A DNA stretch of 30,653 bases from a virus: positions 1 through 30,653 of the IMG/VR virus record IMGVR_UViG_3300031963_000654; one strand, written 5' to 3'. Positions 1-30,653 of the stretch are shown here, one piece after another. Within the stretch, counting starts at the first letter, position 1. The number at the start of each line of letters is the position of its first letter. A model generated the notes under the pieces. That model made no database searches. It saw nothing but the letters and a program-made list of their open reading frames with translations, and was not told the origin of the DNA. Position numbers and translations under genes: made by a program.

Positions 1-163
1 TCGTATTGCGAACGTGGTAAAAAGTATCTTCATCGATCTTCTGCGTCGTGCCGTTCATTATTAACGCTAACGTCTCTGCATTGTCGTCCCAATAGACCGA
101 GCCTTGCGCCGTTGGTATGTTGGTCGGCGTAACGTCAAATTCTAAATTGCCCAATTGCACCCC
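1..163. repeat. End-overlap repeat, left copy
   Basis: Bases 1-163 match 30491-30653 in the same orientation with two mismatches (33 t versus 30523 c; 37 t versus 30527 c). The repeat lies in the middle of an open reading frame that becomes continuous when the ends are joined. It is therefore best read as the overlap produced when a circular or circularly permuted genome was linearised at an arbitrary point. A physical terminal repeat is possible but less likely, because the boundaries fall inside a tail-fibre coding region. Confidence 0.9.
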
Positions 164-982
164 GAACTCACCAAGATTCACGTCGCCTGTCGCGCCTGTG
201 TATGGTACTTTGTTCGGTAGTTCTGTTTCGATGTCAGCAACGTCCGCTTGTAAGTCGGTAACATCTTGTTGCAACAAATCAATTTCCGCTTCAATGTCTA
301 TTATAGTCTGACAAGAACCTATCGTTGCACACGTCAAACCTACCTCGTCGGTCAAAAGATACCAACCGCGCACCCCTTCGTCATTCGTTCCGTAGTAATA
401 ATTCGGTGCTGGTGTTGCTTCGTCGTTCACAAGACTAACGTTGCCGTATTCGTCGCGTGTAATCGAATCAATGAAGGTCAAGATTGAACCTGTACCACCG
501 CTTCCGCTTTCAAACATATCGTTCCACTCTGCAGGAATACTACAAGCATCCCAATAGTAAGGAACGAGTAGTTCAAGACTAACTGTCCAACCTGTGAGCG
601 TGTTGTGAAATTCTTCAAGGAATGGCTCAAGACTTACATTTTGTACCGTGATTAAGTCACCGAATAAAACCCTGTGGTTTGTAATCTCGGCAACCAAGTC
701 TTCTGCTATTCGTTGAAGGTCTGACAACACCTCACGTTGAAATTCAACCTTATCGTCTTTGTCGCGTGGAAGATCCGCAAGGACAATCTGAAAAGAAAAC
801 GTTTTCGTACCTTTCGCGTAAGTAACGTTCGAAGGCACGACGTGCATAAAGGGGTATTCGGTAAACTTCTCGAGGTCAGCCGTGTCAATCTGACCGTGTG
901 AAAAGGTCTTGAGAATAAAGTGTCCAGAAGCGAATGCCTTGAATCTATCTATAAGCGCGTTGTAGCTTTGTACGTTCGACAT
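1..982 (-). CDS. Tail completion-like / tail fibre fusion protein, N-terminal part (runs off the window end)
   Basis: The frame opens with ATG at 982 (MSNVQSYNALIDRFKAFA) and has no stop before base 1. Joined to the frame at 29163-30653 it gives one protein of 769 residues. Residues 1 to about 150 look like the small tail-completion/terminator-like protein common in Bacteroidota siphophages (motifs EYPFMHVVP, TFSFQIVLADL, LTGWTVSLELLVPYYWDAC). Residues of about 225-250 are a heptad-rich stretch (LLQQDVTDLQADVADIETEL) that suits a trimeric fibre stalk. VPYTGATGDVNLG then begins a fibre-type repeat region. The start overlaps the end of the chaperone second frame (945-1115) by 38 nt. The terminator role is inferred from resemblance and position just after the chaperone; the continuity of the frame is seen directly. 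Confidence 0.8.
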   Translation of the reverse strand, partial: MSNVQSYNALIDRFKAFASGHFILKTFSHGQIDTADLEKFTEYPFMHVVPSNVTYAKGTKTFSFQIVLADLPRDKDDKVEFQREVLSDLQRIAEDLVAEITNHRVLFGDLITVQNVSLEPFLEEFHNTLTGWTVSLELLVPYYWDACSIPAEWNDMFESGSGGTGSILTFIDSITRDEYGNVSLVNDEATPAPNYYYGTNDEGVRGWYLLTDEVGLTCATIGSCQTIIDIEAEIDLLQQDVTDLQADVADIETELPNKVPYTGATGDVNLGEFGVQLGNLEFDVTPTNIPTAQGSVYWDDNAETLALIMNGTTQKIDEDTFYHVRNT

Positions 983-1115
983 AATTGTAGTCTATTAAGT
1001 AAGTCATATAAGTAAATATCTCCCACGCACTTTTTTCCGTAATTGCATCCAACTTTGTTATGTCGCGCCCACACGCTTCCATAAATAAGTGGTACCAACC
1101 GTAGCGACCAAGCAC
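945..1115 (-). CDS. Tail assembly chaperone, second frame (gpT-like)
   Basis: This frame lies -1 relative to the upstream chaperone gene (1121-1702) and carries a protein-like segment: LGRYGWYHLFMEACGRDIT, then KLDAITEKSAWEIFTYMTYL. It resembles the second component of phage tail assembly chaperones. It has no ATG before the conserved part. The choices are a GTG at 1115, just after the upstream TAA, or an ATG at 1082 that would cut the domain. The -1 frame is open all the way back to the T9 run at 1225-1233, so expression by -1 ribosomal frameshifting as a G-GT fusion, as in lambda, is plausible. The end overlaps the next gene by 38 nt. The coordinates given use the GTG start. Confidence 0.6.
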   Translation of the reverse strand: MLGRYGWYHLFMEACGRDITKLDAITEKSAWEIFTYMTYLIDYNYVERTKLQRAYR

Positions 1116-1120
1116 TTGGT

Positions 1121-1702
1121 TTAGTCCTTCTCGGTCGTCAATTGCTCCATCTCCTTCGTCAACTTCTGAACTTCGTTCTCCAAATAATCGAGCGAAGTGT
1201 TGTTTAGTTCGTTGAGCAAAGTCGAAAAAAAAAGCATCGCACCGTTGAATTGTTCGAGCGTCATCTCCTCAACGTAGGACTCAACTAACTCTCTATTTTG
1301 TTTGCTATGAGGCACGATAGTGTACTTTGAACCTACGCGCTTGTCAATAGGTCGGTAAAGCGTTCCCATTATCTTCACGATGTTTGAGTTCACGTCAGAT
1401 GCCCAGGTGCTTATGTCAGCGTATTCGCCCATTGAGATTGAATACAAGTCGGGAATGAAACCGAAGTCCTTGTCTTTGATTGTAATCGTCTCGAAGAACT
1501 TCGCTGATTCGTTTGCCAGAGTGTCCTCGAATGCGCCCAACAAAGTAGGCAAATGTTGGAAGGGAATCTGCTCCGCTTGTTCTTTGCTCAAGTTAGACAC
1601 GGAAGCAAGACGCTCAATGTCGTTCTTTGCCGCGTGATAGTCAACGTATTGCTTGACGCTTATCGATGCGTAGTCAGCAGGTATACTTACTTTTATGCTC
1701 AT
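1121..1702 (-). CDS. Tail assembly chaperone (gpG-like)
   Basis: A 193-residue protein starting at ATG 1702. It contains FGFIPDLYSISMGEYADIS and KIMGTLYRPIDKRVGSKY, signatures I associate with the tail assembly chaperone of Bacteroidota phages, and ends in a coiled-coil-like stretch (LENEVQKLTKEMEQLTTEK). In this role it would bind the tape measure protein in the cytoplasm during tail assembly. It is followed at once by a conserved-looking second frame (945-1115). That arrangement is typical of G/T chaperone pairs and strengthens the assignment. A run of nine T on the coding strand (1225-1233) covers codons 157-160 and could be the frameshift site. The tape measure gene is far away in window coordinates but lies on the same strand and unit. 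Confidence 0.65.
   Translation of the reverse strand: MSIKVSIPADYASISVKQYVDYHAAKNDIERLASVSNLSKEQAEQIPFQHLPTLLGAFEDTLANESAKFFETITIKDKDFGFIPDLYSISMGEYADISTWASDVNSNIVKIMGTLYRPIDKRVGSKYTIVPHSKQNRELVESYVEEMTLEQFNGAMLFFSTLLNELNNTSLDYLENEVQKLTKEMEQLTTEKD
1225..1233 (-). promoter_or_regulatory. T9 slippery run, candidate -1 frameshift site
   Basis: The coding strand reads CTT TTT TTT TCG, which contains a canonical U UUU UUU slippery heptamer in the zero frame. After a -1 shift the frame stays open for about 95 codons, to the TAG at 945-947, and runs through the conserved-looking gpT-type segment. I did not find an obvious stimulatory stem or pseudoknot directly downstream. A shift nearer to the zero-frame stop is an alternative. 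Confidence 0.45.
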
Positions 1703-1880: not shown

Positions 1881-2140
1881 TACAAACACCCTTCGTCGTC
1901 GTCGTCGATTGTGTTTGCTTCGTTGTAAATGCGTATTGCTTCCATTTCAACCTGTTGCTTTGTCCACTCTGGATGAAAGGCTGTGATTTGTGATTTGAGA
2001 AAGTTTAATTTGTTTTCGCTCATTTGTTTGTTATGTTCATTTTGCATATTCCTCGCCTTGTTTAAAATAGCGTTCCACTCGAACTTGTCTTTTGGTGTGT
2101 TCCACAGTTGTTCGAACATCCAGTCTAACGCGTCGTTCAT
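1868..2140 (-). CDS. Hypothetical phage protein with C-terminal CxxC
   Basis: Ninety residues from ATG 2140 (MNDALDWMFEQLWNTPKDKF), ending in an acidic stretch and CLYCGS. The ATG overlaps the TGA of the upstream gene (ATGA), which indicates translational coupling and selects this start over the TTG at 2167. The N-terminus resembles a group of small phage proteins with an LDWLYEQL-type opening whose function is not known. The terminal CxxC might bind metal or sit at a protein interface, but one pair of cysteines is not enough to claim a zinc site. Confidence 0.7.
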   Translation of the reverse strand: MNDALDWMFEQLWNTPKDKFEWNAILNKARNMQNEHNKQMSENKLNFLKSQITAFHPEWTKQQVEMEAIRIYNEANTIDDDDEGCLYCGS

Positions 2141-2307
2141 CTTGATTTTATTTCTCGCGTGTCCCAAAACATTTCACACTCTCCGTCTTTTATTGTTGGT
2201 GTTTCGCTGAAGTAACTTTGCGCGTAGGGGTTCGCGGTTGCAAGATAGCGGTAACACGTTCCTCGTTGTTCGCAGTTCACACCTTTGCACATTGTAATGT
2301 CCGCCAT
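2137..2307 (-). CDS. Small Cys-containing hypothetical protein (56 aa)
   Basis: The frame runs from ATG 2307 (MADITMCKGVNCEQRGTCYR) to TGA 2137-2139. Its cysteines at residues 7, 12, 18 and 44, with Tyr and Arg between them, suggest a small metal-binding fold. I associate this kind of sequence (C-x4-C-x5-C-Y-R-Y) with small hypothetical proteins of Bacteroidota phages. The stop overlaps the next ATG by 4 nt. It falls below common ORF-length cut-offs, so it is easily missed. The function is unknown. Confidence 0.7.
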   Translation of the reverse strand: MADITMCKGVNCEQRGTCYRYLATANPYAQSYFSETPTIKDGECEMFWDTREIKSR

Positions 2308-2309
2308 AT

Positions 2310-2555
2310 TTACACGATTAAATCTTCAACGTTGATTTGATGCTCTTGGAGTAAACCACGAATGTATTCAAAGACTTCCTCAATGCCTTGTTGATATGCG
2401 CCTTCCTGCCGTTCGTTGTACTTGGTGAACTTGCGGTAGCCGTTCATATCCAACTCCCACAACATCATTGCCATATCGTGCGCCTTCGTTATGCGGTTGA
2501 ACTCATAACGATCGTCTCCGTCGCTTAAGTCAAATGTCAATGTTGCGGTACTCAT
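2310..2555 (-). CDS. Hypothetical phage protein
   Basis: Eighty-one residues from ATG 2555. The middle (YEFNRITKAHDMAMMLWELD) and the following KFTKYNERQEGAYQQGIEEV match the pattern of a small all-alpha protein that recurs in phages of many hosts (an LWELD core followed by K-Y), with no assigned function that I know of. It lies 2 nt before the Cys-containing gene and follows the small-terminase-like gene, so it is part of one operon. No membrane segment or signal peptide is visible. Confidence 0.75.
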   Translation of the reverse strand: MSTATLTFDLSDGDDRYEFNRITKAHDMAMMLWELDMNGYRKFTKYNERQEGAYQQGIEEVFEYIRGLLQEHQINVEDLIV

Positions 2556-2578
2556 TCGGTAATTTGTCGAATTGGTTG

Positions 2579-2857
2579 TTATAATTTGTCATTGATTATT
2601 ATTTGTACTGGAGCGTCGCTGTCACCTGCGTGAACCGTTCTCGCCTGTTTAGGTTTGAAGTATTCAAGCATTGCAAGGTAGTGGTGCAAATAGTCTTCGT
2701 CGTCCATCGAATGAAGAACAGTCATTGCGCGTTCAGCACCTTGCGTTACAACGTAGTCGCCTAACTGATTCCACATTTCAACCTTCTTGCTGACTGCGCC
2801 CTTCGGCTTCAAACCACCGTGTCCTTTCTTCAATCGTCCGTGTTCGTCTCTTTCCAT
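2579..2857 (-). CDS. Terminase small subunit-like DNA-binding protein
   Basis: Ninety-two residues from ATG 2857; the TTG at 2866 is less likely. The N-terminus (ERDEHGRLKKGHGGLKPKGA) is the basic RLKKGHGG/KPKGA signature found at the start of many phage proteins annotated as small terminase-like or DUF5681-like. A helical body follows (MWNQLGDYVVTQGAERAM) and then LEYFKPKQAR. In this role it would bind packaging sites on phage DNA as a partner of TerL. TerL is on the other strand at 11508, so the usual terS-terL adjacency is missing and the role is tentative. Confidence 0.55.
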   Translation of the reverse strand: MERDEHGRLKKGHGGLKPKGAVSKKVEMWNQLGDYVVTQGAERAMTVLHSMDDEDYLHHYLAMLEYFKPKQARTVHAGDSDAPVQIIINDKL

Positions 2858-9972: not shown

Positions 9973-10660
9973 TCGTGCAGAACGCGAAAGCGCGTTTGTA
10001 GCCGACTACGACCTTCCGACATTCGTTAAACTTTGCTCGAAGGTTTGCGCTATGTACGGAATAGCACTTCCAGAAGCGCAACTACTCCAGATGCTGCACG
10101 AATTTATAGGTAAACACTTTCGTTGGGTGACATTTGAACACTTCAACCTTGCGTTCGAACTAAATGCAGCAAACGAACTGTCAAAGAAGTGCGAACACTT
10201 TGGAGCGTTGAGCGTGTCTTTCATTGGTGACGTTTTGACGCACTACAAACCACACAGAGACAAGGCGAATCTACAAATTCAGCGTGAAATAGCGCAATCA
10301 ATAGAAGCAAAATCACAACAAATAAAAGAAAACGAAATGGCGGTGAACGACGACAGCTGGAGAAGAATGTTGAAAGAAGATATTGACAGCTTCAAACAAG
10401 GCAAATACACGACTTTAGAATTGCGAGGTGTGTCAATGATGCGGTGGCTCGAAGAAAGTAAGCGTATAACGGCTGAAACATTCACAGATGAAGAATACAA
10501 TCTTTGTAAAGCGAAGGCACGAAAGACAGTCTTCAATGAACAGCAACTTTCAAAAGGAATGGTTGAGCGAATGAGCGACAGGAAGCGTCAACTACTCAAA
10601 GAATCGATTCAGTTTGAAGGCTTCCGTGAGTTGTACAAACTTTATTTGTCAAAGCAATGA
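9905..10660 (+). CDS. Putative replication protein
   Basis: A 251-residue protein from ATG 9905 (MENSIPMLRNASTQTLTITQ). ATG 9923 is an alternative; a TTG at 9869 lies in the preceding gene. The helical core (DLPTFVKLCSKVCAMYGIAL, PEAQLLQMLHEFIGKHFRWV, FEHFNLAFELNAANEL) resembles proteins that follow the GWKVG-type gene in Bacteroidota phages and are usually listed as replication or helicase-loader-like. No Walker motif is visible. The 4-nt ATGA overlap with the methyltransferase gene indicates coupling. Its role is inferred from context. Confidence 0.6.
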   Translation: MENSIPMLRNASTQTLTITQRIDRAERESAFVADYDLPTFVKLCSKVCAMYGIALPEAQLLQMLHEFIGKHFRWVTFEHFNLAFELNAANELSKKCEHFGALSVSFIGDVLTHYKPHRDKANLQIQREIAQSIEAKSQQIKENEMAVNDDSWRRMLKEDIDSFKQGKYTTLELRGVSMMRWLEESKRITAETFTDEEYNLCKAKARKTVFNEQQLSKGMVERMSDRKRQLLKESIQFEGFRELYKLYLSKQ

Positions 10661-11373
10661 AGCACGGCTCACTATTCAGCGGAATCGGTGGATTCGATTT
10701 AGCTGCCGAATGGATGGGATGGGATAACATCTTTCACTGTGAGTGGATGCCATTTCCTCGCAAAGTTTTAAATCATTATTGGCCTAATTCTATAAGTTAT
10801 GAAGACATCACAAAAACAGATTTCACTATTCACCGAGGAACAATTGACATCCTTACCGGTGGATTCCCTTGCCAACCATACTCAAGCGCAGGCAAGCGAC
10901 TTGGGAAAGAGGACGAGCGACACCTCTGGCCGCATATGCTCAGAGTCATTTCAGAAGTTAAGCCAACCTACGTCGTGGGCGAAAACGTTCGTGGACTTAC
11001 TAATTGGAATGGGGGAATGGTCTTCGAAGAAGTGTGCGTTGACTTGGAAAGTCAAGGGTACACCGTACAACCGATATTATTGCCAGCTTGTGCCGTTGGC
11101 GCACCGCATAGACGCGACCGAATTTGGTTCGTTGCTTCCGACACCTTGCGCGTTCGACAGCACGAACGCTCGTGCGACAATGAAGAGCAGCCAAATAAAA
11201 GAAGGTTCAATGCACTCAATGACACTTCCGAGAATGTTGAATATGGGATTGCTTCCAACACCAAACGCATTGAAGGAAGGAATGATGTATTCAATGCACG
11301 AAATGGGTGGATCCAAGAATTGGACAAGAAAATATTCTGGAATGAATTTCCGACTCAACACCCCGATTTGTAG
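10657..11373 (+). CDS. DNA cytosine-5 methyltransferase, main frame (lacks C-terminal motifs)
   Basis: A 238-residue frame from ATG 10657 with the m5C methyltransferase motifs in order: motif I SLFSGIGGFDLA (residues 5-16, SAM binding), motif IV GGFPCQPYSSAG with catalytic C72, motif VI GENVRGL with E109, and motif VIII APHRRDRIWFVAS with R153/R155. It stops at TAG 11371-11373 just after NEFPTQHP. The expected continuation (ICSGDDG...LDGITF.KWR...YGNAIVPQV) lies in the +1 frame. Dropping one C from the run CCCC at 11361-11364 would restore a single protein. So either a sequence error or mutation, or +1 frameshifting at CCC, is likely. Intact, it would protect phage DNA from host restriction. 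Confidence 0.85.
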   Translation: MKHGSLFSGIGGFDLAAEWMGWDNIFHCEWMPFPRKVLNHYWPNSISYEDITKTDFTIHRGTIDILTGGFPCQPYSSAGKRLGKEDERHLWPHMLRVISEVKPTYVVGENVRGLTNWNGGMVFEEVCVDLESQGYTVQPILLPACAVGAPHRRDRIWFVASDTLRVRQHERSCDNEEQPNKRRFNALNDTSENVEYGIASNTKRIEGRNDVFNARNGWIQELDKKIFWNEFPTQHPDL

Positions 11374-11521
11374 CGGAGATGATGGGCTTTCCCCCAAATT
11401 GGACGGAATTACCTTTCCTAAATGGCGACAAGAATCATTAAAGGGTTACGGCAATGCAATCGTTCCACAGGTTGCTTATGAAATTTTCAAGGTAATACAA
11501 AGACTAAATGCAACCGTATAA
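10799..11521 (+). CDS. Overlapping +1 frame carrying the methyltransferase C-terminus
   Basis: A 240-residue frame from ATG 10799 (MKTSQKQISLFTEEQLTSLP), overlapping the main methyltransferase frame for 575 nt. Its last part (about 11363-11521: SGDDGLSPKLDGITFPKWRQ, then GYGNAIVPQVAYEIFKVI) carries motif X of the enzyme, so that stretch is genuine coding. The overlapped part contains SWAKTFVDLLIGMGEWSSKK, CALTWKVKGT and two LLPTP motifs, features I recall from proteins annotated next to or within phage cytosine methyltransferases. That may mean true overprinting, or merely a conserved shadow frame (ASDT/ASNT in one frame gives LLPTP in the other). It overlaps terL by 14 nt. Confidence 0.55.
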   Translation: MKTSQKQISLFTEEQLTSLPVDSLANHTQAQASDLGKRTSDTSGRICSESFQKLSQPTSWAKTFVDLLIGMGEWSSKKCALTWKVKGTPYNRYYCQLVPLAHRIDATEFGSLLPTPCAFDSTNARATMKSSQIKEGSMHSMTLPRMLNMGLLPTPNALKEGMMYSMHEMGGSKNWTRKYSGMNFRLNTPICSGDDGLSPKLDGITFPKWRQESLKGYGNAIVPQVAYEIFKVIQRLNATV

Positions 11522-13272: not shown

Positions 13273-13453
13273 TTTACTCACGCAAGTTGTCGCTGAATTA
13301 GAAGCGCGTGAAGCGAAGGGAATTGAAACGTACGGAACAACGTTAGACCGAACCGACTTAACGCGCTCAGAATGGCTGCAACACGCGTACGAGGAAGCGT
13401 TAGACCTTGCGTTGTATTTGAAGAAACTAAAAATTGAAGAAGATGGAAATTAA
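13259..13453 (+). CDS. MazG-like / dNTP pyrophosphohydrolase-related protein
   Basis: Sixty-four residues from ATG 13259. The motif KGIETYGTTLDRTDLTRSEW, then LQHAYEEALDLALYLKKL, matches small phage proteins of the all-alpha NTP pyrophosphohydrolase (MazG-like) type, where the H-x-x-E-E...D residues of the second helix bind metal. Such enzymes trim the nucleotide pool or the (p)ppGpp-related stress response during infection. It is shorter than full MazG domains and may need to oligomerise to be active. The assignment rests on motif resemblance. Confidence 0.6.
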   Translation: MNKSNLLTQVVAELEAREAKGIETYGTTLDRTDLTRSEWLQHAYEEALDLALYLKKLKIEEDGN

Positions 13454-13745
13454 CAAAACACCTGTTGCATACTTTTTTCACGAGTTAGCCGACATAAAAA
13501 AAAATGTTCCTTATGAATTACAAGCCGAAACTATTACGAACTTATATGCTTATTGCAGACGCGTAGAAAAAGAAATGCTAATTGAATTTGCTGAATTTGT
13601 AGCGAAATACCCAGACAAAAATAGAAACGCAAACAATGAAATGTTACACGCAAAATCGAAGTACGACGGAGCAGAAAGGACGGTTGATTTATTAGACGAA
13701 TTTTACATTCAAAACTTTAACGAATATGCCAGAAAGCAAAACTAA
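13443..13745 (+). CDS. Hypothetical helical protein
   Basis: One hundred residues from ATG 13443; the TTG at 13434 is less likely. It is helical throughout (YFFHELADIKKNVPYELQAE; YCRRVEKEMLIEFAEFVAKY; AERTVDLLDEFYIQNFNEYA) and AT-rich. The family is not recognised; the EKEMLIEFAEF part recalls the EKEQIIDA helix of other small phage ORFs. It overlaps the gene before it by 11 nt and the RHH gene by 20 nt. Confidence 0.6.
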   Translation: MEINKTPVAYFFHELADIKKNVPYELQAETITNLYAYCRRVEKEMLIEFAEFVAKYPDKNRNANNEMLHAKSKYDGAERTVDLLDEFYIQNFNEYARKQN

Positions 13746-17065: not shown

Positions 17066-18772
17066 TTATGGATATTTAAGTGAACCTCTGTCGGGTCTGT
17101 TAATTGGAGCAGTACCTTCGATGCCTTTTTGTGGAACGTATGGGTTGTTTCCAACGCGCTTGTCATTGTTCAATCCGTCGTTAGGTAATATGCGTCCTTT
17201 TGAATCTCTTTTGCGAATATAAATTAGACGCTTCCAAAAATGGTGACAGAAGCAACCGCCGACATAGCGAAAGAGCGAATAGGTTTGAGCCCCTTCTGGA
17301 GCAAACGCTTTGTTCACTCCTGCTTTGCTCATTGCTTCAATATCTTCGTAACGAAAGATTGCGCCTGCTTGCGACATTTGAACCATTTCTTTACAAAACT
17401 CACGGCTGTTTGTGCTTATGTTTTGTGAATATGCGTAACGCAATTTATAAAGTCCAATGTCACCCCATTTAGATTCCTTTTCTCCTTGAGCGTCGCTCAT
17501 TGAAGGCATCTTGTTACGCTTCGCAAAGAACTCGCTTGTGTATTGCAATTCGTTTTCGGGTTCGGTTACGTCTTCTTCACTTACTAACTGCCATTCGTCT
17601 AAATCAATGTATTCCGCTTTTTCTTTTAGTACATCAATCCACTCACGACCGTCTTCATCTGAAAAGTCGTTCTCAGCATCCGCAACTACTTTTTTTTTTA
17701 ATTCGATTGATTGAGTTGTGGGTTCAACAACAACTGTAACGTCGTCGAAAACGTTGTTCATTTCAATCTTCAAATCACTTCCAAGAATAGGCGCGAAAGT
17801 ATTTGTTATGATTCGTTGATAAGGCTTAATAACTTGATTATTGAAAATCTCTAAACCAACCAACATTTCGTCCTTGTTAGAACCGAAGCCGTTAGATTCT
17901 CTAATTCCGTGAATAAGTGGTGAAACAACGCGGTGTCCAACCATGATTTGCTTCGCGGTTTCTTCGCTTAAAAACTGATATTGTTTGTCCGCATCTGAAA
18001 GAGGAAAATCTTTGATGTCGGGAACGCGTGTCGGATCTTCGTTAAAAGTCATCAAGAACTTACCCGCGTTACTTGCACCGCTTAAACGTTCTTCCCATTC
18101 ACGACGGATAGCCTCACGTTCTTCTTTTTGCGGTATTCCGTTTAAGAAGTTAATGATGAACGAAGGAAATAATCCGTTCAAGATATTGTTGACGTGATAC
18201 ATTCCCATTTGATGAGAAAGTTCAATGTAATTCAACGCTCCGAAATAGTCGGGTTTAGGATAGTACGAACTTCCTGCCATCATTCCGTGTGCATAGATAA
18301 CTTGACGCGGTTGTTCTTGCGCCTGTGAAGGGTTGAACGCAGGTATAAATTCGGGTTTGCCTTTCTTCGAACGTGAATTTCTCCAGTCTTTCGAATACCA
18401 AATACCCGTGATTTCTTCCTCTTCTTTGTCGTACGCAAGACGACAGTTTTCAAAAGGCAAATGGTTAATCTTTACAACGCGTGTAAAGTCCATCGACCAT
18501 ATCACCTCAGCAACAAACGCACCTTGTAGTTTTAAGTCGAAAGAAATTCCTTGTAAAGCACTATCGAGAATCGTTCCTGTACCTTGTCCCTCAATCATGA
18601 ACGCAATTGAGTTAGTCAACGCGTTGTGAATTGGAGAGTTGTAATACAGATTAATCAAATATTGGCTGTAAAGGTTGTCATTTCCGTAATCAATCCAACC
18701 GCTACGGTTCTCTTTTTCGATTGCTTCGGTAGGTATGTAACGACTTAATGCTATTTGCTGAATGTTGCTCAT
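17066..18772 (-). CDS. Portal protein with C-terminal extension
   Basis: A 568-residue protein from ATG 18772, sharing one base with the previous stop (TAATG). The N-terminal two thirds are a Bacteroidota-type portal (NLYYNSPIHNALTNSIAFMI; VIWSMDFTRVVKINHLPFEN; VGHRVVSPLIHGIRESNGFG). The portal is the dodecameric DNA gate of the head. The C-terminal 100 residues (TNSREFCKEMVQMSQAGAIF, RYEDIEAMSKAGVNKAFAPE, YVGGCFCHHFWKRLIYIRKR) form an extra module seen at the end of portal or Mu F-like proteins in these phages, with Cys and His that may bind metal. In transcription order it comes after the capsid genes. Confidence 0.85.
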   Translation of the reverse strand: MSNIQQIALSRYIPTEAIEKENRSGWIDYGNDNLYSQYLINLYYNSPIHNALTNSIAFMIEGQGTGTILDSALQGISFDLKLQGAFVAEVIWSMDFTRVVKINHLPFENCRLAYDKEEEEITGIWYSKDWRNSRSKKGKPEFIPAFNPSQAQEQPRQVIYAHGMMAGSSYYPKPDYFGALNYIELSHQMGMYHVNNILNGLFPSFIINFLNGIPQKEEREAIRREWEERLSGASNAGKFLMTFNEDPTRVPDIKDFPLSDADKQYQFLSEETAKQIMVGHRVVSPLIHGIRESNGFGSNKDEMLVGLEIFNNQVIKPYQRIITNTFAPILGSDLKIEMNNVFDDVTVVVEPTTQSIELKKKVVADAENDFSDEDGREWIDVLKEKAEYIDLDEWQLVSEEDVTEPENELQYTSEFFAKRNKMPSMSDAQGEKESKWGDIGLYKLRYAYSQNISTNSREFCKEMVQMSQAGAIFRYEDIEAMSKAGVNKAFAPEGAQTYSLFRYVGGCFCHHFWKRLIYIRKRDSKGRILPNDGLNNDKRVGNNPYVPQKGIEGTAPINRPDRGSLKYP

Positions 18773-22231: not shown

Positions 22232-24085
22232 TTAGCCACCAAGACGCGCTTGGTTGTTGATTAATTGTTGTGCTTCTAAATTGCTCGACACTTGCGTACT
22301 TACAACGTATGCTTGAAGTGGCGGTTGTTGGTTGGGTTGGTTTTGTACAAAGGCGAAGTTTGAAGGTGAAGGTGCTTGCATACCCCCTGCCGAAGGAACA
22401 CTTCCGCCACCACTTCCGCCACTTGTCGAACCACCTCCGTTAAATTGTTGTTTGCTGATAACGGCAACACGCGCAAGACCTTGAGCAATTGCAATACCTG
22501 CCGCTACCGCTGCGCGAACAGGCGCGTCTGGTGTGCTGATAGCCATTTGTGAACGATATGCTCCTTGTGCTGCAAGGTATGTGTCTATTGTAGCCGTTGC
22601 GATGCTCACACCTTTTTGTATCTGAAACGCTTTTCTTTGTTGTGCTTCGCTCTCTCCTGCGAACGCTCCTGCTAAATCACTTATAATTGACAAAGAAGTC
22701 TTCATTGCATCGACGCGCAGTTGTGCTTTTGCGTCTTCGGCTTGTCTTAATTCTTCAATTTCTTGTTGAGATTGTTGAGCGCGTAACGAAGTAAGATTCG
22801 CGTGAATCTGCATTTCGGTAGCAAGTTGAGCGTCTCCTCTTTCTATTAAATCATTAATGCTAATAGATGCCATTCGCTCATCTTCAGCTATCATCTCATC
22901 GTTTAACTTCTTACGACGTGCCATTTCTGCTTCGTCGGCTTCTTCTTCCCATTTAGTTAAAATGTCAGTTAATTCTTGTTGAGATTTTTCGTAATCATCA
23001 ATTTCTTTTTGAGCGATTTCTTTTCTTGCGTCTGACTCTCTTTTATCTATTGATTTATTTGTTTTATCAATAGCGTCTAATAATTTTTTCTCATTATCTT
23101 CATAAACTTGAATATCAAAAGCATTTCCAACACCACTTAAAGAAAGTTTTCTATCTGCTCTTAATTGAATAAGTTTTGCTCTTGTTTCTTCTAAAGCAGT
23201 ATTATATTTTTCAGTTGCTCTTCTTTTTTCATCTTCAATTTTTGCTGAATCATTTCCAATTAAATTAGCGTCTGAAATTGTTTTGTAATAATCTACAATA
23301 TGCTGATTTTGTTCTAATAATGCTTGGTTTTGTAATTCAATAATTCTTTTTCTTGCTTCTTCAGATGCTTTTGAATCATCTTGAATTTCAGCTATACGTT
23401 TTTTAGTCTGTTCCTGCTTAATTTCATTTCCTAATAATTCTTGAGAAAGAAGGTATTGTTGATATAATGAATCTCCATACATTTTAGAGTATGTGATTTT
23501 ATTTTTTATAGCAGCGTTTTGCGCTTCTAACGCTCCTAATTCTTTTTTTAATGAATTTAATACCGCAGTTTCTCCTTTGAATAACGCAGCAAATTCTTTC
23601 CAATTGGCAATAACTCCAGCAATAGCGACTCCAAGTAATAAAATAGGATTAGCTAAAATTGCTTTTCCTAAATCAGCAAGTCCTTTTATCAAACCACCTA
23701 CTTCATCTTTCAGAGTCTTAAAATCAATGTTGCGAACAGCAGTACCCATTCCACTCAAAGCTTGTCCTGCACCTTTTAAGTCCAAGTCCATCAATCGAGA
23801 ACTGAATAATCCAACGTTGTTAGAAATACCTTCGAAAGCATTACCTGCGTTAGCACTAATTTCAGCAGATAAGTCGCTGATATTGTCCTTTAATTCAGCA
23901 GCCCGAGCAGAAGCAATTTTGAACTCCTCGCTCGTCTTGTCCATTTGTTGCAATTGATTTTGCAGCGCACGAAGTTCCGCCTTCGCGCTTGTGAATCCTT
24001 TCGCTGTATTATCTGCCGCGTCAGCCGTCTGATTAAGGACGTTAACCGCGTTTGTGCTTACATTAAAATCTATTGTATTCGCCAT
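22232..24085 (-). CDS. Tail tape measure protein
   Basis: A 617-residue protein from ATG 24085. It is mostly helical and coiled (ADNTAKGFTSAKAELRALQN; LQQMDKTSEEFKIASARAAE), with a hydrophobic segment typical of tape measures (ILANPILLLGVAIAGVIANW), a long charged region and a Gly/Ser-rich then Gln/Pro-rich C-terminus (NGGGSTSGGSGGGS). Tape length sets tail length; 617 residues imply a short siphovirus tail of roughly 90 nm, taking about 1.5 angstrom per residue. DNA for residues of about 175-368 (22980-23560) is much richer in A and T than the flanks, suggesting an exchanged segment. In other respects it is a normal small tape measure. Confidence 0.8.
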   Translation of the reverse strand: MANTIDFNVSTNAVNVLNQTADAADNTAKGFTSAKAELRALQNQLQQMDKTSEEFKIASARAAELKDNISDLSAEISANAGNAFEGISNNVGLFSSRLMDLDLKGAGQALSGMGTAVRNIDFKTLKDEVGGLIKGLADLGKAILANPILLLGVAIAGVIANWKEFAALFKGETAVLNSLKKELGALEAQNAAIKNKITYSKMYGDSLYQQYLLSQELLGNEIKQEQTKKRIAEIQDDSKASEEARKRIIELQNQALLEQNQHIVDYYKTISDANLIGNDSAKIEDEKRRATEKYNTALEETRAKLIQLRADRKLSLSGVGNAFDIQVYEDNEKKLLDAIDKTNKSIDKRESDARKEIAQKEIDDYEKSQQELTDILTKWEEEADEAEMARRKKLNDEMIAEDERMASISINDLIERGDAQLATEMQIHANLTSLRAQQSQQEIEELRQAEDAKAQLRVDAMKTSLSIISDLAGAFAGESEAQQRKAFQIQKGVSIATATIDTYLAAQGAYRSQMAISTPDAPVRAAVAAGIAIAQGLARVAVISKQQFNGGGSTSGGSGGGSVPSAGGMQAPSPSNFAFVQNQPNQQPPLQAYVVSTQVSSNLEAQQLINNQARLGG

Positions 24086-28155: not shown

Positions 28156-28761
28156 TTATTGTATGTCGTTTAATTGATTCTCTATTGTTGCTGTGAAGTC
28201 TTTCTCGTAAGCTGCGACTACCTTCGATTCGTATTCGTCCCAAATGTTTTCCATTGCGTAGTCGAACGCTTTCCACCCCTTTATTCCGTCACGACGAACT
28301 TTGAACATAATGAGTTTTGCTACCTGTTGTTTCAGCTCTTCGGTTGACTTCTTGAATTTACCACTTGATTTGTCACGAAGGCGAATACCTTTTATAGACA
28401 TCCAGTCGTATATCGCTTTTTGCATTGGTGACATTTGACCTTTCGCGGGTTTGCTTCCGCTTCCTTTCTTGAATGAGTAGGGCGCACCTTGCGACTTCTG
28501 CGTTCCATTCACACCGTTTTCACGAAACAAGAAATACTTCGAAGCCTTACCCTTCGCGTAAACCGAAACATTGATTGAAGACCCTTTTATCTTCAACCGA
28601 TAAGCCAAAGACTTTTCGAGCGTACCACTTGCAACCGCGTTGGTGTAGTTGCGTCCTACCTTTCGCTTCATGCGATAGTCGGACTGCATCAATTCGACAA
28701 AGCGTTTTGCCATGTCGTTGACTACAGCGAAGAAGTTTGGTGCGCTCTGTTCGTTAGGCAT
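28156..28761 (-). CDS. HK97 gp10-like tail completion / neck protein
   Basis: A 201-residue protein from ATG 28761. The basic N-terminal helix region (FAVVNDMAKRFVELMQSDYR), the GTLEKSLAYRLKIKG element, YFLFRENGVNGTQKSQGAPY and SPMQKAIYDWMSIKGIRLRD fit the gp10-like tail-completion proteins of Bacteroidota phages. It would sit at the head-tail joint. It follows a small 41-residue ORF with an 8-nt overlap and precedes the distal tail gene by 1 nt. Confidence 0.7.
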   Translation of the reverse strand: MPNEQSAPNFFAVVNDMAKRFVELMQSDYRMKRKVGRNYTNAVASGTLEKSLAYRLKIKGSSINVSVYAKGKASKYFLFRENGVNGTQKSQGAPYSFKKGSGSKPAKGQMSPMQKAIYDWMSIKGIRLRDKSSGKFKKSTEELKQQVAKLIMFKVRRDGIKGWKAFDYAMENIWDEYESKVVAAYEKDFTATIENQLNDIQ

Positions 28762-29162: not shown

Positions 29163-30653
29163 TTATATTACGAAAGTCCACCCTGTTGATTTGTTCACAT
29201 AAAGTCCTTCCACTGCATCAGTGCAATAAACTATCAAGCCAACCGCAGGAGTTGCTATTGCTAACCTTTGAGCGTTAGTCATTCGCGGAGGAAGAAAGCC
29301 ACGAGTTGTTGAATCTACTTGGAATTGTGCTGATGCTAAATTTGTATTGCCATTGATAGTCATTTGAGCGGATGGACTGATTCTCCAAATTCTTGTTGTA
29401 GCACTATCAAAAGCAAATACTGTTGAACCTACCATTGTCCATATTCCGTTCGCTACACTACCATTATCAAAATAAAGATATTGTCCTGTCCCTGATAACC
29501 CTTTAAGATAGAATGCGGCTGAACCTGAAGCACCACCAATTCTTGCGCTTCCATTCACATCTAATCTAAACCCAGCGTCTGTTGTTGTGCCGATGAGTAG
29601 GTTTCGAGTAGTGGTAAGACGCATCGCTTCACTTCCATTTATACCAAAATTTATTTGATGCGTACTTGGCTGAAATTCTATGTAAGTTGCTGTTGCTGTT
29701 GGATTAATTAAGTATCTCGAATAAACACCCCAACCTGTTCTAATAGAACTTGCTGCACCTACCGCACCTGCAATATCAACTCCATAAGCAGGCAAAGCCG
29801 TGCCAATACCCAACCTATTGTTAGTTGCGTCCCAAAAGAAGTTAGCTGATTCCTGCAATACATTCCCCGTCCCTTCAAACAACACACGTCCTACCGTACC
29901 GCTTGTTATTGGTGTAGTGCCTACCGTTAAGCCTGTCGCGATAGTGAATGTTCTGTTGGCTGAAAGGTCTTGCGTTGTGCCGTTAATGGTCAGCGTTCGC
30001 GTTGTTGGAACTGGAGTAAAGCCAAGTGCCGTTTCAACAGTCTTATTCTTCCACAAAGAAGTTGAAGATTCGTAAGTCAAAACGTTGTTGTTTACAGGTG
30101 TAGTGATAAGAACACCTTCGTCAGCGTTGATGTTGCTACCCAACGTTTGACGAATCATTAACGTCCCATTGTTAGCCGCGTGAACCACCGCAGCGGCAAC
30201 GATAATGTTGTTCGGTGCTGTTGGTTGCGTCGTCTGAAAACCACCTGCAACAGTCGTCGAAACGTAAAGGATGTCTCCGTCGGCAAACGCTGAAGTGTTC
30301 ACTCCGCGCATCTTACCGAACTGATAAACCTTGCCGTCTTGGTTGTTCAGAATCTCTTCCGAAGTAACACCCATATAGTATTGCGACGGAGTAGTTCCAT
30401 TCGCTATCATTGGCGCAATCAAAAGACGACCGCTGTTGCCTGTTGTCCCTGCAAATCGGACAGGTGTTCCTTTTGGGATCGTGCTTCCTGTCGTATTGCG
30501 AACGTGGTAAAAAGTATCTTCACCGACCTTCTGCGTCGTGCCGTTCATTATTAACGCTAACGTCTCTGCATTGTCGTCCCAATAGACCGAGCCTTGCGCC
30601 GTTGGTATGTTGGTCGGCGTAACGTCAAATTCTAAATTGCCCAATTGCACCCC
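29163..30653 (-). CDS. Tail completion-like / tail fibre fusion protein, C-terminal part (starts beyond the window end)
   Basis: This is the continuation of the frame at 1-982; the GTG at 30650 is an internal valine and not a true start. The repeat-like fibre region includes YHVRNTTGSTIPKGTPVRFA, YYMGVTSEEILNNQDGKVYQ, FFWDATNNRLGIGTALPAYG and VNGSARIGGASG. The C-terminal knob (GFLPPRMTNAQRLAIATPAV, GLIVYCTDAVEGLYVNKST) is the usual end of Flavobacterium-type phage fibre proteins. It likely binds the host surface. In the overlap with the left end, two codons differ (Lys-Val-Gly here, Lys-Ile-Asp there). Confidence 0.85.
   Translation of the reverse strand, partial: GVQLGNLEFDVTPTNIPTAQGSVYWDDNAETLALIMNGTTQKVGEDTFYHVRNTTGSTIPKGTPVRFAGTTGNSGRLLIAPMIANGTTPSQYYMGVTSEEILNNQDGKVYQFGKMRGVNTSAFADGDILYVSTTVAGGFQTTQPTAPNNIIVAAAVVHAANNGTLMIRQTLGSNINADEGVLITTPVNNNVLTYESSTSLWKNKTVETALGFTPVPTTRTLTINGTTQDLSANRTFTIATGLTVGTTPITSGTVGRVLFEGTGNVLQESANFFWDATNNRLGIGTALPAYGVDIAGAVGAASSIRTGWGVYSRYLINPTATATYIEFQPSTHQINFGINGSEAMRLTTTRNLLIGTTTDAGFRLDVNGSARIGGASGSAAFYLKGLSGTGQYLYFDNGSVANGIWTMVGSTVFAFDSATTRIWRISPSAQMTINGNTNLASAQFQVDSTTRGFLPPRMTNAQRLAIATPAVGLIVYCTDAVEGLYVNKSTGWTFVI
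30491..30653. repeat. End-overlap repeat, right copy
   Basis: The same 163 bases as at 1-163, with two differences (30523 c versus 33 t; 30527 c versus 37 t). Read on the coding strand, both differences are A to G changes in neighbouring codons of the tail fibre (ATC to GTC and GAT to GGT). Confidence 0.9.

Follow-up and report, generated by a model that had tools for sequence, protein, structure and literature searches.

A tail gene in IMGVR_UViG_3300031963_000654 (the whole stretch of 30,653 nucleotides analysed here is referred to as the window) carries two overlapping reading frames that meet at a run of nine T's, and we consider it moderately probable, from comparison with its relatives, that this gene gives two products, the longer of which would be a fusion made through slippage of RNA polymerase on the run. 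The phage group to which it belongs is linked to Bacteroidota hosts. Ordinary expression would yield a 193-aa protein, the proposed tail assembly chaperone in the role of lambda "G", while RNA polymerase would sometimes slip on the T9 and leave some mRNA with one extra U (U10, or U7). On the slipped mRNA, ribosomes would continue without a break in the −1 frame to give a fusion of 252 aa, in the role of "GT", with a helical C-terminal domain; slips of the opposite sign (U8, U11) would lead into the +1 frame, where a stop would follow within about ten codons.

The features of the gene carrying the run (hereafter the slip gene) and of its neighbors are as follows.

1121..1702, − strand: zero-frame ORF of 193 codons, encoding the short product (193 aa), a proposed tail assembly chaperone, matching phrog_32199
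1225..1233, − strand: T9 slip site with a C before the run, read from the sequence and conserved in relatives
945..1226, − strand: −1 frame extension, 93 aa plus TAG, predicted C-terminal part of the fusion (open frame, conserved peptide)
1113..1115, − strand: GTG in the −1 frame, not conserved as a start when close relatives are compared
2..982, − strand: gene 3' of the slip gene, N-terminal part resembling P12024L gp42, weak match to phrog_30964 (E 0.007)
2..982 across the contig ends into 30653-29163, − strand: fibre-like part of the same gene, joined through the terminal repeat
28156..28761, − strand: homologue of P12024L gp43 (tail completion/neck-like), phrog_29822
22232..24085, − strand: tape measure gene, lying six genes beyond the slip gene, assigned by phrog_3336 (2.4e-14) and gene order

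The zero-frame protein belongs to phrog_32199, a family with no annotated function, and its codons at the slip site read ATG CTT TTT TTT TCG. No stop interrupts the −1 frame from the T run until the TAG at 947-945, which gives the predicted fusion its length. AlphaFold2 models the zero-frame product with a pLDDT of 89, placing the slip-site codons within a long C-terminal helix, and the −1 part as helical with a pLDDT of 74. On re-reading, the coordinates given in the earlier note all proved right (zero-frame end at 1121, T9 at 1225-1233, −1 frame open to 945), and the segment GRYGWYHLFMEACGRDITKL was found in the −1 frame as described there, together with the GTG at 1115-1113.

The first and last 163 bases of the window (1-163 and 30491-30653) are the same but for two mismatches; the contig therefore probably represents a whole genome of about 30.5 kb, closed into a circle, in which the fibre-like gene 982-2 runs on into 30653-29163. 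Read in order, the slip gene is followed by the fibre-like gene, then by homologues of P12024L gp43 and gp46, and then by the tape measure gene. For P12024L gp43 itself there is a second match, to phrog_5 (tail completion or Neck1). Elsewhere in the window a DNA cytosine methyltransferase seems to be split over two overlapping frames (ORFs 10657-11373 and 10799-11521): the N-terminal part stops at 11373, and a GNAIVP-like motif, which we take to belong to the C-terminal part of the enzyme, lies in ORF 10799-11521 in a different frame. This arrangement may be a frameshift, an error or recoding.

Conservation of the T run among relatives

IMG/VR was searched for relatives with a single protein query and five profiles, and relatives in phage records were added, to give a set of 286 non-identical genes. 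The only two without a T run (L168 and L259) are cut off by a contig edge before the site, and the remaining 284, which group into 104, 61 and 27 clusters at identity thresholds of 90%, 70% and 60%, respectively, have T9 (273) or T10 (11) at the homologous place in every case, down to roughly 25% identity. The earlier note had proposed looking for the T run in relatives, and the slippery run is never absent where the site is reached. When codons are redrawn according to each gene's own usage, at least nine T's are expected at the site in 24% of the 92 representatives on average, so that its presence in 284/284 is more than chance would give. A scan of the collection for the window's own clade, in which runs of T7 to T12 were allowed, returned 107 T9 sites and zero of any other length. 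One T7GT match from a pattern scan (L562) lies in an unrelated gene and was set aside as a chance match.

The frame entered by a −1 shift is kept open along with the run. It is open for about 70-99 codons in 277/277 untruncated relatives and always ends beyond the zero-frame stop, and the +1 frame stops within ten codons in 283/284. The nine T's and the six bases that follow them do not vary at all among the 77 closest relatives. Codons around the site are conserved at 0.93-0.95, whereas the rest of the gene stands at about 0.6-0.8, a difference that double coding would predict. Length differences inside the overlap are whole codons. From this comparative sequence evidence we conclude that the shift into the −1 frame is under selection. 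One relative (L267) seemingly has the gene twice, once on each strand, at 2-328 (−) and 1992-2696 (+), both with the T run, which may reflect duplication or chimeric assembly.

Slippage by the polymerase or by the ribosome

The frameshift between lambda G and GT is a textbook case of recoding, and the ratio of the two products matters for the assembly of phage tails. Lambda G/GT and P2 E/E+E' share with the slip gene a short zero-frame product and a longer product with the same N-terminus and a −1 continuation, encoded in the tail region. The two systems use ribosomal heptamers (T_TTT_TTG in P2, with six T's), whereas the slip gene has T9 or T10 in any codon phase and no family-wide stimulator. 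Programmed −1 ribosomal frameshifting on U_UUU_UUU within the T9, after the manner of these two systems, is accordingly the alternative that has to be weighed first; we regard it as possible, if rather doubtful, as the main route, and ribosomal shifting may also act alongside slippage.

One result that favors the polymerase is how the run is built. By codon phase, the 284 sites consist of 252 T9 and one T10 in phase 1, 11 T9 and ten T10 in phase 2, and ten T9 in phase 0. The codons flanking the FF pair contribute (2,1), (2,2), (1,2), (1,3) or (0,3) T's, a sum of always at least three, and the combinations (2,0), (1,1) and (1,0), which an in-frame heptamer allows, are never seen. In other words, the run is conserved by length irrespective of codon phase, with all three phases represented by at least nine T's, and on the tree the phase must have changed at least six times. 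A Fisher test on clusters gives p = 1e-13 at 90% identity and 2e-7 at 70% with phylogeny ignored, and a phylogenetic pairs test (3/3 pairs) gives p = 0.25, such that the number of independent changes behind the argument is small. The phase pattern is thus suggestive and appears to favor polymerase slippage.

A ribosomal heptamer needs seven T's, and the absence of runs of seven or eight in any phase among the 284 relatives argues against it, as does the P2 slip site, with a run of only six T's; here the comparison uses P2's own site alone rather than ribosomal-site variation, as the P2 control scan gave only relatives that are 99-100% identical. The place of the site is also unlike that of annotated phage chaperones, with the zero-frame stop typically about 50-60 codons past it vs. 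an average of 26 nt (PMC10885494). Stimulators of ribosomal shifting, which are common and not obligatory, are likewise not conserved. In the 60 nt downstream of the run there is no excess of local RNA structure across the 92 representatives (mean z of 0.02 vs. −0.03 in a control region), and tetramers resembling a Shine-Dalgarno sequence occur in 11/92. A hairpin downstream of the window's own T9 (z of −1.96) was considered as a stimulator and rejected, since changes on its two sides in 16 relatives did no better than shuffles and gave no covariation support.

On the other side, every relative has a T TTT TTT in frame, none of the heptamer's wobble positions varies within the close clade, and tail assembly chaperones are known to be recoded by ribosomal shifting (PMC5009743; P2 record). 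The first of these is unavoidable in any run of nine T's, and by the same token every run of at least nine includes an in-frame U_UUU_UUU, which leaves room for ribosomal shifting. The run is also partly explained by its amino acids (aliphatic-F-F-aromatic). Finally, known slippage genes make 15-55% of the shifted product (PMC4256274), which exceeds the yield of lambda GT (about 1 in 30, with G and GT made at about 30:1; PMC5009743).

Programmed slippage has been recognized by a run of nine A or T, conserved length in homologues and a conserved layout of two ORFs (PMC1088944). The slip gene has a run of at least nine T's inside the overlap of two frames, conserved as T9 in 273 and T10 in 11 of 284 relatives, with the −1 frame open in 277/277. 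It shares these properties with Shigella mxiE (U run), Thermus dnaX (A9) and IS elements (A9), in which nine A or T of conserved length also lie in a two-frame overlap (PMC1088944); for mxiE and the IS elements, it is insertion of a base that joins the two ORFs (PMC1088944). Those are cellular or IS genes, in contrast to a structural-assembly gene conserved in hundreds of phages, for which heterogeneous mRNA is a prediction.

Long runs in other ORFs of these phages, which are depleted in the case of A's, give a further point in favor of slippage. Runs of at least nine A's number 6 vs. 25.3 ± 3.9 expected, and runs of at least nine T's 2 vs. 4.4 ± 1.4 expected. The depletion of T runs is weak and the window's own portal gene carries an A10, which tells against slippage, and depletion of long runs could also come from mutation (PMC1088944; PMC4066793). 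The A10 lies at 17690-17699 in the coding direction, inside the portal gene (17066-18772, −), and an A9 lies at 13496-13504 in the coding direction, inside ORF 13434-13745 (+). If the host polymerase slips at nine, both of these runs should yield truncated products.

The conservation of run length in any phase, taken together with the lack of family-wide stimulators, leads us to favor transcriptional slippage. The two frames, the conserved run and the selection on the −1 frame directly after it are seen in the sequences, and we infer from them that the polymerase would do most of the slipping. The earlier proposal of a programmed −1 shift is upheld, and its canonical ribosomal route is probably not the one used, a phase-independent run of at least nine pointing instead to slippage. 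Whether an entire lineage of tailed phages, for the most part those of Bacteroidota, makes its chaperone fusion by polymerase slippage at T9 (rarely ten) in place of ribosomal frameshifting is a broader proposition that we see as evenly poised.

The product and its second frame

We infer that the product has a chaperone role. It seems quite likely to be chaperone-like by architecture and position, without being filed in the lambda G/T family. The layout, in which a zero-frame product is accompanied by a 3'-end extension in a second frame, is present at sequence level and is the same as that of lambda G/GT, and the slip gene is the first gene of the tail module both in the window and in P12024L. 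Relative L243 and P2 gpE match phrog_166 in the same register (6e-6 and 4e-7, respectively), and Phage_TAC_7 gives a weak Pfam match in 4/82 members (best 0.0043). These observations argue against the alternative that the slip gene is real and its product is another tail or head-tail protein, which we consider unlikely though still worth keeping in view. In its favor, strong homology to any chaperone family is lacking: there is no significant direct sequence match to lambda gpG or P2 gpE, direct profile comparison with lambda gpG, P2 gpE, Mu gp41, T4 gp26 and T4 gp51 gave nothing significant (single sequences being weak profiles), and a named chaperone came up in the BFVD search with no better than E 0.24. 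PDB fold searches with both parts gave nothing above chance, which does not make the fold new.

Gene order also speaks for a different role. Lambda and P2 genes of this kind lie directly before the tape measure gene, whereas six genes separate the slip gene from it; in P12024L the slip gene stands directly after TerL and the tape measure gene is similarly non-adjacent. A scan of large ORFs downstream of the slip gene in divergent relatives for a neighboring tape measure gene recognized none. The description "gpG-like tail assembly chaperone" in the earlier note is weakly supported: the gene opens the tail module and has faint links to P2 gpE, but it does not match lambda gpG and is not adjacent to the tape measure gene.

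A weak structural relative was noted in Flavobacterium phage 6H (L482), where gp10 at 10352-10927 corresponds to R9VW65 (E 8e-4; paired by its 191-aa length). It ends in T_TTT_TTC, followed at once by a TAG in the −1 frame, and an unannotated, helix-rich-looking ORF lies further on in the −1 frame, in the gap 10047-10352. The T9 rule may therefore fail outside phrog_32199.

The second frame could in principle be a gene of its own, with translation beginning at GTG1115 or reinitiating close to the zero-frame stop, and we hold this to be very improbable. The GTG does exist at 1115, and the Nonlabens phages P12024L (gp40/gp41) and P12024S (gp38/gp39), which are about 28% identical and homologous in both frames, with C-T9 in the same phase and the same order of tail genes, are annotated as two hypothetical proteins, the second frame on its own from an ATG that overlaps the first stop. 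Against this, the 77 close relatives have GTG at that position in only 40 (GTC in 22, GTA in 13), the first 45 codons of the −1 frame are without ATG, GTG or TTG in 52/90 representatives, and a start codon within 18 nt of the zero-frame stop is found in only 9/90. The −1 peptide that directly follows the run, [L/F]xFRxRLxxxYxELF, is kept across families that are about 25-30% identical, with positions 3, 11 and 15 nearly invariant, and its conserved residues belong to the overlap; they precede the candidate starts and, in almost every lineage, the zero-frame stop as well. This conserved peptide, the frequent lack of start codons and the unconserved GTG1115 place the shift at the T9 rather than near the zero-frame stop, and the predicted product is a fusion. 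The programmed −1 shift of the earlier note is borne out in this way and assigned to the T9, and the GTG that the note had offered as an independent start is not supported.

That a contingency tract in the DNA (phase variation) or an artefact of sequencing switches or breaks one continuous gene is scarcely credible; homopolymers of nine are mutable in principle but the same out-of-frame state is found in all 284 genes, T9 in 107/107 sites of the T7-T12 clade scan, and joined frames in no relative; like the GTG1115 start, phase variation was rejected on the start codons and run lengths of the relatives.

Hosts, spread and meaning

The slip gene is common to hundreds of diverse, mostly aquatic phages, and the named relatives P12024L and P12024S infect a marine flavobacterium. 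Five contigs in metagenome-assembled genomes (MAGs) were found with profile A6 (profile A7 was too divergent for scanning, and a genome scan with profile A3 gave no match). Four of the five are in Bacteroidota MAGs and one in a Euryarchaeota MAG, binning errors being possible, and all five have the T9. The divergent T9 relative on the contig binned as Euryarchaeota (L601, 6001-6390) may belong to an archaeal virus or reflect a binning error.

Recoding of tail assembly chaperones, reported as ribosomal, and transcriptional slippage in bacterial genes and IS elements are already known. A search of the open literature, with subscription papers mostly outside it, did not turn up any tail assembly chaperone described as a product of transcriptional slippage. 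Several hundred phage genes that are listed as two hypothetical proteins, or that have been missed, are corrected in annotation by the present analysis. If polymerase slippage is indeed the route, the slip site would offer a natural, highly conserved cassette for measuring slippage by Bacteroidota RNA polymerase. It would also mean that selection maintains the pair of products, and that the level of gene expression at which the pair is set can shift, as it does between the dnaX genes of E. coli and Thermus.
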